From an uncultured Veillonellaceae bacterium (GTDB taxonomy: Bacteria > Bacillota > Negativicutes > Veillonellales > Dialisteraceae), in the NCBI GenBank assembly GCA_949286115.1, contig CASEBK010000031.1, positions 1-64,000 of the forward strand: a DNA stretch of 64,000 bases, read 5' to 3'. The notes beneath the pieces are model-generated. The model saw only the letters and a list, made by a program, of their open reading frames with translations. It was not told where the DNA came from and searched no databases. Position 1 is the stretch's first letter; every line of letters starts with the position of its first letter. Of the stretch, positions 3,652 to 33,416 are shown piece after piece. Both the position numbers and the translations under genes were made by a program.

Positions 3652-4131
3652 TCATTTGCCGCGGCTCTTCTGGATGAAGTGGACCACTTTTTTGCCGGCG
3701 GCGTTGATCTGGTGGCCGGTGCGTTTCACTTTGCGCATGGCGGTGGATTTGGACTGGATCTTCGGCTTGAGGTCGAGGTCGGTGTCGATGTTGCCGCGCT
3801 TCACGGAGGTGGCGCGGATCTTGTCTGGGTGGAGGTATTCCCGAAGGACCGTCATGGCAAGGGTCGGGGAAACGGCGGTGTCGAAGAGGTAGATGTCGAT
3901 GGCGGCGTAGTTCGGCTCGGGGTAGGTGTGGATGCAGAGGTGGCAGTTCTCGCCGAAGCCGGAGACGGTGATCTCTTTTTCGCCTTCGTGGTAGAAGGTG
4001 TCGTAGAGCTCGATGCCCAGGCTCTGGGCGGCGGAGTTGATGAGGGGGATGAGCAGGTCGGCGGAGTCGATGACGCCTTCGCGGCAGCGGTAGCAGTCGA
4101 TGAGCAGGTGTCGGCCGATGTAGTTTTCCAT
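3652..4131 (-). CDS. S-adenosylmethionine decarboxylase-like (SpeD/SpeH family) protein with altered active site
   Basis: 159 residues; RBS GGAGG precedes the ATG. The fold signature of prokaryotic class 1B AdoMet decarboxylase is clear around residues 57-80 (SGFGENCHLCIHTYPEPNYA, compare the family's ESHLSIHTWPE). AdoMet decarboxylase self-cleaves to make a pyruvoyl group from Ser63 and uses His68 and Cys83. Here His68 is kept, but position 63 is Cys (preceded by Asn instead of Glu) and position 83 is Phe. The last 45 residues form a Lys/Arg-rich tail absent from ordinary SpeD. No speE lies nearby. It may be a paralogue with another substrate, or one that no longer processes. The family call is firm, the activity is open, so no gene symbol is given. 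Confidence 0.75.
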   Translation of the reverse strand: MENYIGRHLLIDCYRCREGVIDSADLLIPLINSAAQSLGIELYDTFYHEGEKEITVSGFGENCHLCIHTYPEPNYAAIDIYLFDTAVSPTLAMTVLREYLHPDKIRATSVKRGNIDTDLDLKPKIQSKSTAMRKVKRTGHQINAAGKKVVHFIQKSRGK

Positions 4132-4183
4132 GGTGTGCCTCCATTGATAGAATATATTTTCGATATGACGCGGGAGCGACTGT

Positions 4184-4453
4184 TTATTTCTGATAGATGT
4201 CCCGTCTGTGACCGATGGTGAGGGCGAGGATGACGCATGTATCGTCGTGGATGAGACAGATCATCCGGTAGTCACCGATGCGGTAGCGCCAGAGGTCGGC
4301 GAGGGGACCTGTGAGGGCTTTGCCGCTCGCGCGGGGGTCTTCAGCGTCGATGAGGTGTTTCGTGAGCCACGCTTTGAGCATGCGCTGGGTGCAGCGGTCG
4401 AGCTTTCGGAACGCTTTGTCAAATTTTGGCGTTGTCTCAAAACGGTATGTCAC
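4184..4453 (-). CDS. RelE/ParE-family toxin
   Basis: 89 residues counted from a GTG that overlaps the antitoxin stop (GTGA). A longer start at 4471 is possible but would lie inside the antitoxin gene. The sequence has the RelE fold pattern: an N-terminal FDKAFRKLD helix, then LWRYRIGDYRMICLI and a C-terminal TIGHRRDIYQ. The Arg-rich beta-strand and the terminal His-Arg-Arg-x-x-Tyr match mRNA-interferase toxins of the RelE/YafQ/YoeB type that cleave mRNA in the ribosomal A site. It is translationally coupled to the antitoxin upstream. Confidence 0.85.
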   Translation of the reverse strand: MTYRFETTPKFDKAFRKLDRCTQRMLKAWLTKHLIDAEDPRASGKALTGPLADLWRYRIGDYRMICLIHDDTCVILALTIGHRRDIYQK

Positions 4454-4671
4454 AGGTCCAGCTCCTTCCACAGTTCGGAGATGGGGCGGGACTGACAGCC
4501 GCTCTTTACGTAGTCTTTGTAGGCTTCTTCTGCAAGAGAGATGTCATATTCGTCTTCGATCTTTTCGAAGAGGGCGGCTTTGAAGGCTTCGCCCACGGAC
4601 ATGGAGTGCAGGCGGGCGTAGCTCTCGGCCATCTGTTTTTCTTTGTCGTTCAGTCGGATGGAAAAGCTCAT
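4450..4671 (-). CDS. RelB/DUF6290-type antitoxin
   Basis: 73 residues starting MSFSIRLNDKEKQMAE, an N-terminal ribbon-helix-helix DNA-binding segment; the C-terminal half (SLAEEAYKDYVKSG, then ELWKELDL) is the region that usually wraps the toxin. The frame runs open further upstream, but the ATG at 4671, preceded by GGAGTG, fits the family start. Antitoxin first and toxin second with a 4-base overlap is the classic order. The imperfect palindrome just upstream is a likely autoregulatory operator. Confidence 0.85.
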   Translation of the reverse strand: MSFSIRLNDKEKQMAESYARLHSMSVGEAFKAALFEKIEDEYDISLAEEAYKDYVKSGCQSRPISELWKELDL

Positions 4672-4685
4672 GGGATCACTCCTTT

Positions 4686-4706
4686 CTGTACTACATTGTA
4701 TTACAG
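4686..4706. promoter_or_regulatory. Palindromic operator candidate for the RelBE pair
   Basis: CTGTACTAC and TTGTATTACAG form an imperfect inverted repeat (8 of 9 matching arm positions) 15 bases before the antitoxin ATG, a usual place for a ribbon-helix-helix repressor site. It is inferred from symmetry and position. Confidence 0.5.
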
Positions 4707-4736
4707 AAGAAAACGGGGCGCAAGCGGCGGGATTTC

Positions 4737-4765
4737 TTGACAGAGCACGGCGCATCCTGTATAAT
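4737..4765 (+). promoter_or_regulatory. Sigma-A promoter of rplU-prp-rpmA
   Basis: Consensus TTGACA (4737-4742), a 17-base spacer and TATAAT (4760-4765). It leaves a leader of about 100 bases before rplU. Confidence 0.9.
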
Positions 4766-4771
4766 GCATAA

Positions 4772-4874
4772 GTCATTGTACAGGGTGCTGTGACGCAACC
4801 GCACGGGACGGGCTCTGGAGAAATGCCGGAAGGCTGCCTGTCATCGGCGAGTATAGTGAAGAGGAGGTGCACAC
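4772..4874 (+). promoter_or_regulatory. Untranslated leader of rplU (possible L21 autoregulatory leader)
   Basis: About 100 untranslated bases with GC-rich segments able to pair (around 4780-4850) lie between promoter and RBS. Firmicutes rplU operons often carry an L21 leader RNA bound by the ribosomal protein. The position fits; the specific structure was not verified. Confidence 0.4.
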
Positions 4875-11218: not shown

Positions 11219-11569
11219 GCGTGAGCACGAAAGATGATTGCGGGCCCTTCGGGGTCTGAGGAAAGTCCGAGCTTCGCAGGGCAGGATGCCGGATAACGTC
11301 CGGCGGGGGCGACCCCAGGGAAAGTGCCATAGAAAAGGAGACCGCCGCGCAAGCGGTAAGGGTGGAAAGGTGCGGTAAGAGCGCACCAGCAGTCAGGTAA
11401 CTGGCTGGCTTGGTAAACCCCATCTGAAGCAAGGCCGAATAGGGAAGGGTTGAGGTTGCCCGCTGACCTTCCGGGTTGTTGCCGCTTGAACAGGGGAGCG
11501 ATCCTCTGTCTAGATAGATAATCATCGCCACGTATGTGGAACAGAACTCGGCTTATTGACTGCTCACCA
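11219..11569 (+). ncRNA. rnpB: RNase P RNA, bacterial class A
   Basis: Catalytic RNA that trims tRNA 5' ends. The end helix P1 is formed by GTGAGCA (11221) and TGCTCAC (11561). Conserved blocks are present: GAGGAAAGTCCGAGCTTCGC in P4/CR-I, the GGTAAACCCC region, and AGATAGATAATCATCGCC with ACAGAACTCGGCTTA near the 3' end. It has its own promoter and terminator. The size of about 350 bases and the layout fit the ancestral A type of Negativicutes rather than the Bacillus B type. Confidence 0.95.
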
Positions 11570-11570
11570 C

Positions 11571-33279: not shown

Positions 33280-33290
33280 GCAGGAGTATG

Positions 33291-33416
33291 CTCATCAAGA
33301 GTAGCGGAGGGACTGGCCCTGTGATGCTACAGCAACCATTCTTCGGAAGCGGTGCTAATTCCAGCAGGAAACTGAGAGATGAGGGACGCTTCCCTCTGAT
33401 GGGGAGGCTTTTTTAT
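33291..33416 (+). promoter_or_regulatory. SAM-I (S-box) riboswitch with terminator, upstream of metK
   Basis: Aptamer 33291-33383: P1 arms CTCATC and GATGAG, the conserved AGCGGAGGGACTGGCCC, the GCAACC block and GGTGCTAATTCCAGCA. It is followed by a terminator hairpin (GCTTCCC with GGGGAGGC, then six T; 33388-33416). Binding of AdoMet stabilises the aptamer and favours termination, so metK is shut down when its product is abundant. Confidence 0.96.

Follow-up and report, generated by a model that had tools for sequence, protein, structure and literature searches.

A tailed AdoMet decarboxylase paralogue of the Negativicutes is probably a class-wide pseudoenzyme with a selected basic tail

Introduction

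What can be the function of an AdoMet decarboxylase homologue in which the residue that makes the cofactor has been replaced? This question is raised by a gene in a 64,000-nucleotide stretch of DNA from an uncultured Veillonellaceae bacterium (contig CASEBK010000031.1, positions 1 to 64,000, forward strand), which we call the window. An initial annotation described the product as a protein resembling AdoMet decarboxylase with a cysteine at the position of the pyruvoyl-forming serine, and it suggested a new substrate, a different cleavage chemistry or a non-enzymatic role.

Relatives of AdoMet decarboxylase that have lost or changed their activity have been described. According to the accessible parts of PMC5201418 and PMC6221367, trypanosomatids have dead AdoMet decarboxylase relatives, the prozymes. 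The available text of PMC10407285 reports a Victivallis fusion in which a dead C-terminal SpeD domain is joined to an active one, with no basic tail mentioned in that text. It also presents SpeDC, an ornithine decarboxylase, and SpeDA, an arginine decarboxylase, as neofunctionalised SpeD proteins, for which its authors expect S63, H68 and C83 to be conserved; Gln, Thr, Phe and Tyr residues are diagnostic of SpeDC, and absence of the gamma Pro is diagnostic of SpeDA.

A tailed homologue of AdoMet decarboxylase

The gene lies on the reverse strand at window positions 3652..4131 and encodes a protein of 159 amino acids with an ATG start. A probable ribosome binding site, GGAGG, is present on the same strand at 4138..4142, six bases 5' of the ATG. 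The product matches PF02675 at 84.3 bits (Pfam cut-off, 25) and the T. maritima AdoMet decarboxylase with an E value of 2.5e-11, and it falls below the cut-off of TIGR03330, the NCBIfam equivalog for bacterial AdoMet decarboxylase (72.8 versus 75.65 bits). In the alignment with T. maritima, its motif reads ENCHLCIHTYPE...IYLFD. The pyruvoyl-forming Ser63 is replaced by cysteine (codon TGC, 3943..3945, reverse strand), His68 is kept (CAC, 3928..3930, reverse strand), and Cys83 of the enzyme is phenylalanine (TTC, 3883..3885, reverse strand). The profile match and this alignment thus confirm the combination of Cys63 and Phe83 with a retained His68 that the initial annotation had pointed out. A sequencing error had been named as a possible cause. 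Identical residues are present in two further genomes of the genus, and because all three agree, we rejected this explanation as unlikely.

Behind the core, the protein carries a tail that had correctly been called basic, with 14 K/R residues against 3 D/E after Arg112-Gly113. It begins with a conserved linker of low entropy (residues 111-124; 3760..3801, reverse strand), which follows the pattern RGDFGS..DMKPK in the family and has the divergent form RGNIDT..DLKPK in the window protein, and it ends in a basic helix (residues 138-158; 3658..3720, reverse strand), modelled as a helix by AF2 at low confidence. A tail profile matches the window protein at 4.8e-10, and the amphipathicity of its tail gave a p value of 0.035 against shuffled sequences. 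The protein has the order of parts by which we define a tailed SpeD: a PF02675 core, then the linker, then the basic helix. We assign the gene to a family of class-1b AdoMet decarboxylase paralogues in the Negativicutes, which would be marked by the conserved linker, a basic amphipathic helix and repeated loss of the pyruvoyl-forming serine.

The AF2 model of the window protein has the AdoMet decarboxylase fold (mean pLDDT, 84.7). Its core scores mostly 95-97 by blocks, and its tail, one strand and one helix, about 63-68. For a relative with an intact Ser63 (L092; mean, 86.0), the tail was also modelled as a strand and a helix, at low confidence (67, 75, 56, 58 and 47 by blocks). The best Foldseek matches of the window model were T. 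maritima AdoMet decarboxylase structures, including the non-processing S63A mutant (TMt 0.83-0.85, 29% identity, E 2.9e-9, all for a predicted model). The tail showed no credible likeness to solved structures (best E value, 0.018). Compared with the class-1b enzyme (T. maritima TM0655; PDB 1tlu, 1tmi and 1vr7; TIGR03330), the window protein is alike in fold and in His68 but differs, by alignment, in the changes of Ser63 to Cys, Cys83 to Phe and Ser55 to Thr and in the loss of F49, and it has the added linker and basic helix.

Distribution and conservation of the family

By taxonomy, the group to which the window belongs is Veillonellales, class Negativicutes. A tailed protein was present in 58 of 60 relatives, and a 27-member profile found the family in 283 of 300 sampled genomes of the class, or in 223 of the 227 of good quality. 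When 398 genomes of the phylum were searched with a profile of the tail only, 14 class genomes and 2 genomes outside the class matched; at least 20 genomes were listed as non-matching, all of them outside the class. Both outside matches contain stop codons, and credible tail matches were found within the class only. NCBIfam recognized all 39 members scanned, and only as AdoMet decarboxylase. A single-protein query, which reaches close relatives only, found no viral relatives. The family is unreported in the open-licence PMC literature that was searched, and the accessible part of PMC5491611 does not name AdoMet decarboxylase.

We aligned 100 fetched sequences. Of these, 98 are tailed members, drawn from the 283 matching genomes, and the remaining two, both ordinary class-1b SpeD proteins, served as outgroup. 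Among the 58 members that have lost Ser63, the tail is better conserved than the core: mean column entropy is 1.07 bits for the linker (111-124), 1.67 bits for the helix (columns 130-150) and 2.25 bits for the core. All 58 share Asp12, Cys16, Arg112 and Pro123, and the last two are found in all 98. Within the genus, dN/dS ranges from 0.018 to 0.159 for the core and from 0.070 to 0.103 for the tail, which shows purifying selection. The best 18-residue stretch of the tail is more amphipathic than shuffled sequences (p<=0.05) in 60 of the 98 members and misses this level in 38.

Catalytic residues have been lost at many positions, as would be expected of a decaying pseudogene or a chance remnant of a SpeD duplication. 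We regard this explanation as extremely improbable, since the 58 matches in relatives are without internal stops, dN/dS is at most 0.16, the gene is present in nearly every good genome of the class, and the two tail residues are retained in every member aligned.

Variation at the catalytic positions

Position 63 is occupied by S in 40, G in 42, C in 5, T in 4, A in 3, F in 2, V in 1 and H in 1 of the 98 members. His is found at position 68 in 94 members; at position 83, 64 members have Cys and 22 have Phe. The Ser/His/Cys triad is intact in 25 members, all in lineages outside the order of the window, and these may still be enzymes, as judged from their residues. The class-1a SpeD proteins served as a control: in all 21 examined, one from the window genome and 20 from relatives, Ser/His/Cys is kept. 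The initial annotation had proposed a search for other homologues with Cys63; this residue occurs in the genus of the window, in two members of another family of the order and in one distant lineage. Val, Ala or Phe is also seen at position 63 within the order of the window. On a tree from which columns 55, 63, 68 and 83 were omitted, parsimony requires at least 12 changes between S and non-S at position 63 and at least 10 changes at Cys83; the tree was quickly built and is imperfect, 40 of its 97 forks being open. Because position 63 varies in this way, Cys63 is, on the aligned residues, one of several replacement states. Gly63 replaces Ser in whole, large clades of the tree, a clade-wide fixation that would not be simple drift.

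Other positions change together with Ser63. F49, presumably the adenine-stacking residue, is retained in 23 of the 25 intact members versus 11 of the 58 that have lost Ser63, and E72, which we take to be an AdoMet pocket residue like F49, in 23 of 25 versus 21 of 58. D12, C16, H64, H68 and D79 are each kept in at least 94 of the 98 members, and this suggests that the pocket still matters. The idea that Cys63 points to a new substrate or cleavage chemistry did not hold up against these data, as position 63 is variable, whole clades carry Gly63, and F49 and E72 degrade alongside.

A cysteine could in principle support slow self-cleavage. It is conceivable that the window protein is still a self-processing pyruvoyl enzyme, cleaved through a Cys63 thioester and decarboxylating AdoMet or, like SpeDC and SpeDA, ornithine or arginine. 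The protein retains His68 and His64 together with residues near them, a quarter of the relatives aligned (25/98) have an intact triad, and two SpeD homologues per genome are, in the accessible text of PMC10407285, a sign of neofunctionalised SpeD. The tailed protein resembles SpeDC and SpeDA in being a second SpeD homologue in its genome whose original activity appears to be lost, but of the three residues Ser63, His68 and Cys83 that the available text of PMC10407285 leads one to expect, the window protein keeps only His68. We consider the retention of pyruvoyl chemistry unlikely. The window protein has Phe at position 83 and Thr at position 55 and has lost F49, and some relatives within its order carry Val, Ala or Phe at position 63, which are unable to form a pyruvoyl group. 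In addition, all 8 tailed proteins sampled from good genomes that have no SpeE match and no other PF02675 match are without Ser63. Most likely, to judge from these residues, the window protein neither self-processes by the normal route nor decarboxylates AdoMet.

Relation to spermidine synthesis

The genome of the window also encodes a normal class-1a SpeD (contig C47), with the motifs DKSHITVHTYPE and STCG intact, and has a match to SpeE (contig C16), so the ordinary spermidine enzymes are present besides the tailed protein. This raises the possibility of a prozyme-like activator of the kind known from Trypanosoma brucei, a dead paralogue that would regulate the real SpeD of the genome by pairing with it. 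Apart from the SpeD and SpeE of the window genome, this is favoured by the two PF02675 matches found in 56 of 60 relatives and by T. brucei AdoMet decarboxylase and prozyme chains among the Foldseek matches, although their TM-score is low. We nevertheless find such a role quite doubtful. In 71 good genomes, the tailed protein is present with a single PF02675 match, and wherever positions were compared, this match was the tailed locus itself; among these genomes, SpeE is matched strongly in 37, weakly in 2 and not at all in 32. One of the proteins without a second PF02675 match, that of genome G022, has Ala63. Moreover, in the 21 genomes of the order that were checked, the SpeD is of class 1a and thus a distant paralogue, and the most conserved added feature of the family is the tail. 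With the T. brucei prozyme, as described in the accessible part of PMC5201418, the tailed family would share the presence of a paralogue, probably dead to judge by its sequence, beside an active one; it differs in being kept in genomes where no active partner was found and in its class-specific tail. That the tailed protein is kept in genomes with a single PF02675 match argues against an obligate prozyme role.

The same genomes bear on a role as the housekeeping enzyme. Altogether 56 genomes were without SpeE, at least 20 of them listed as such and the rest inferred from their absence among the matches. No SpeE match was obtained in 34 of the good genomes (227 minus 193). In 32 of them the tailed protein is still present and accounts for the single PF02675 match; from the remaining two, G200 and G268, both this protein and any other PF02675 match are missing. 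Among the genomes with an intact-triad tailed protein, 24 of 25 have another PF02675 match, and the exception is 65% complete. The persistence of the family without SpeE and the second PF02675 protein beside intact copies both argue against a role as housekeeping AdoMet decarboxylase. The job of the tailed family is probably other than that of a polyamine-making enzyme.

Some observations on SpeE itself were made in these genomes. The 37 good genomes with a strong SpeE match and no AdoMet decarboxylase match except the tailed protein belong mainly to families f14 and f18. The SpeE score is lower in some genera (g23, about 1e-84) and not in others (g72). In G022, SpeE (TIGR00417, over its cut-off) is present without a recognisable SpeD. 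Its speE cluster (locus L197, 1705-7508) encodes an Orn/Lys/Arg decarboxylase, an agmatinase, a saccharopine-dehydrogenase-type protein with carboxynorspermidine synthase as its best NCBIfam match, and an nspC-like decarboxylase, and is of the carboxyspermidine type; the last two proteins are below their NCBIfam cut-offs.

Proposed function of the scaffold and the tail

In our view, the tailed SpeD is probably a class-wide pseudoenzyme derived from AdoMet decarboxylase, with a selected function that lies in its scaffold and basic tail and not in AdoMet decarboxylation or SpeD activation. Of the possibilities first put forward, a non-enzymatic role therefore remains as the best reading and a normal AdoMet decarboxylase is very unlikely, whereas the deduction from Cys63 of a changed substrate or cleavage chemistry was not upheld. 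The known AdoMet decarboxylase enzyme is a dimer. The same fold may act here as a dimeric scaffold from which the basic helices would reach an anionic partner. On account of the charge and amphipathicity of the tail, the surface of the inner membrane and RNA/DNA are the partners that we consider most likely. A small ligand may be held by the retained His64, His68, Asp12 and Cys16. The repeated loss of Ser63 would be tolerated or even favoured because, as we propose, the uncleaved chain suffices. Several observations weigh against this reading: 40 of the 98 members retain Ser63 and 25 the complete triad, pocket residues are largely kept, Gly63 is fixed in large clades, both models show the tail at low confidence, and 38 members miss the level set for amphipathicity.

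In a class of diderm Firmicutes, a gene present in almost every genome is thus recognized by NCBIfam, in the members scanned, as AdoMet decarboxylase only, although 58 of 98 members do not have the cofactor-making residue. With a corrected annotation, such genes would no longer lead to wrong predictions of spermidine synthesis, and attention would turn to a function that is unstudied and specific to the class. Self-processing would also have been lost repeatedly here within one family of pyruvoyl enzymes, of which intact and lost members are available for direct comparison.

Genomic neighbourhood

The tailed gene is preceded on its own strand by a relE-like gene, at a distance of 52 bases, and co-transcription of the two is conceivable. 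The relE-like gene is part of a RelBE-type toxin-antitoxin pair just upstream (4184-4872, reverse strand; ParE_toxin, 47 bits; RelB antitoxin NF046040, 83 bits), and past it rplU, prp and rpmA follow on the other strand. The earlier statement that no polyamine gene is nearby agrees with our profile scan of 11 neighbour proteins, up to window position 13.2 kb, in which none was found. Nor was a polyamine operon seen in the family neighbourhoods examined, where most genes were not named by profile.

These neighbourhoods bear on a further explanation. Negativicutes have an outer membrane anchored to polyaminated peptidoglycan, according to the accessible part of PMC10628300, and the tailed SpeD could be a missing component, specific to the class, of the apparatus that joins polyamines to this peptidoglycan, or a polyamine-sensing membrane protein controlling it. 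The protein would be bound to the membrane through its tail, and the retained pocket would bind cadaverine or putrescine. The restriction of credible tail matches to the class and the persistence of the family without SpeE are consistent with this, but such phyletic overlap is common to many class-specific genes, and in the neighbourhoods that we examined, polyamine genes were not seen linked to the family. We also know of no AdoMet decarboxylase fold that forms amides, which we count against this explanation. We hold a role in peptidoglycan to be very improbable; if true, it would recast the AdoMet decarboxylase fold as a polyamine-binding envelope protein seated in the membrane.

Returning to the tailed SpeD as a probable pseudoenzyme, we rejected the gene neighbourhood as a guide to its function, as no neighbour is constant throughout the 41 family loci compared. 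CtsR-type genes occur in 16 of the 41, always upstream and on the opposite strand at varying distance, ClpB/ClpC-type genes in 19, and a rubrerythrin-type gene lies downstream on the same strand in 7. Tested by profile, the single cluster representatives of CtsR and rubrerythrin exceed their Pfam cut-offs and that of McsA is below its cut-off; for the McsB representative, one McsB model passes. Control by CtsR was also rejected: its box is not clearly enriched upstream, being found with 3 mismatches in 2 of 98 upstream regions versus 1.55 expected from shuffles, and with 4 mismatches in 13 of 98 versus 8.1.

In one family of the order (L117-L121), a ClpB-type gene is located upstream on the same strand in 5 of 6 loci, directly in 3 and further away in 2, and its identity as ClpB was confirmed by models in both loci tested. 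This adjacency can be read as synteny and is a weak lead. In the same family, a gene resembling an HD/c-di-GMP-phosphodiesterase is found downstream of the tailed gene in six of six loci. Elsewhere in the window, a large open reading frame near the contig start (219-3566, forward strand) contains nine GLUG-motif stretches and is perhaps the C-terminal part of an adhesin, RNase P RNA is encoded at 11222-11570, and a SAM riboswitch (RF00162, 82.8 bits) is present at 33289-33385 on the forward strand.
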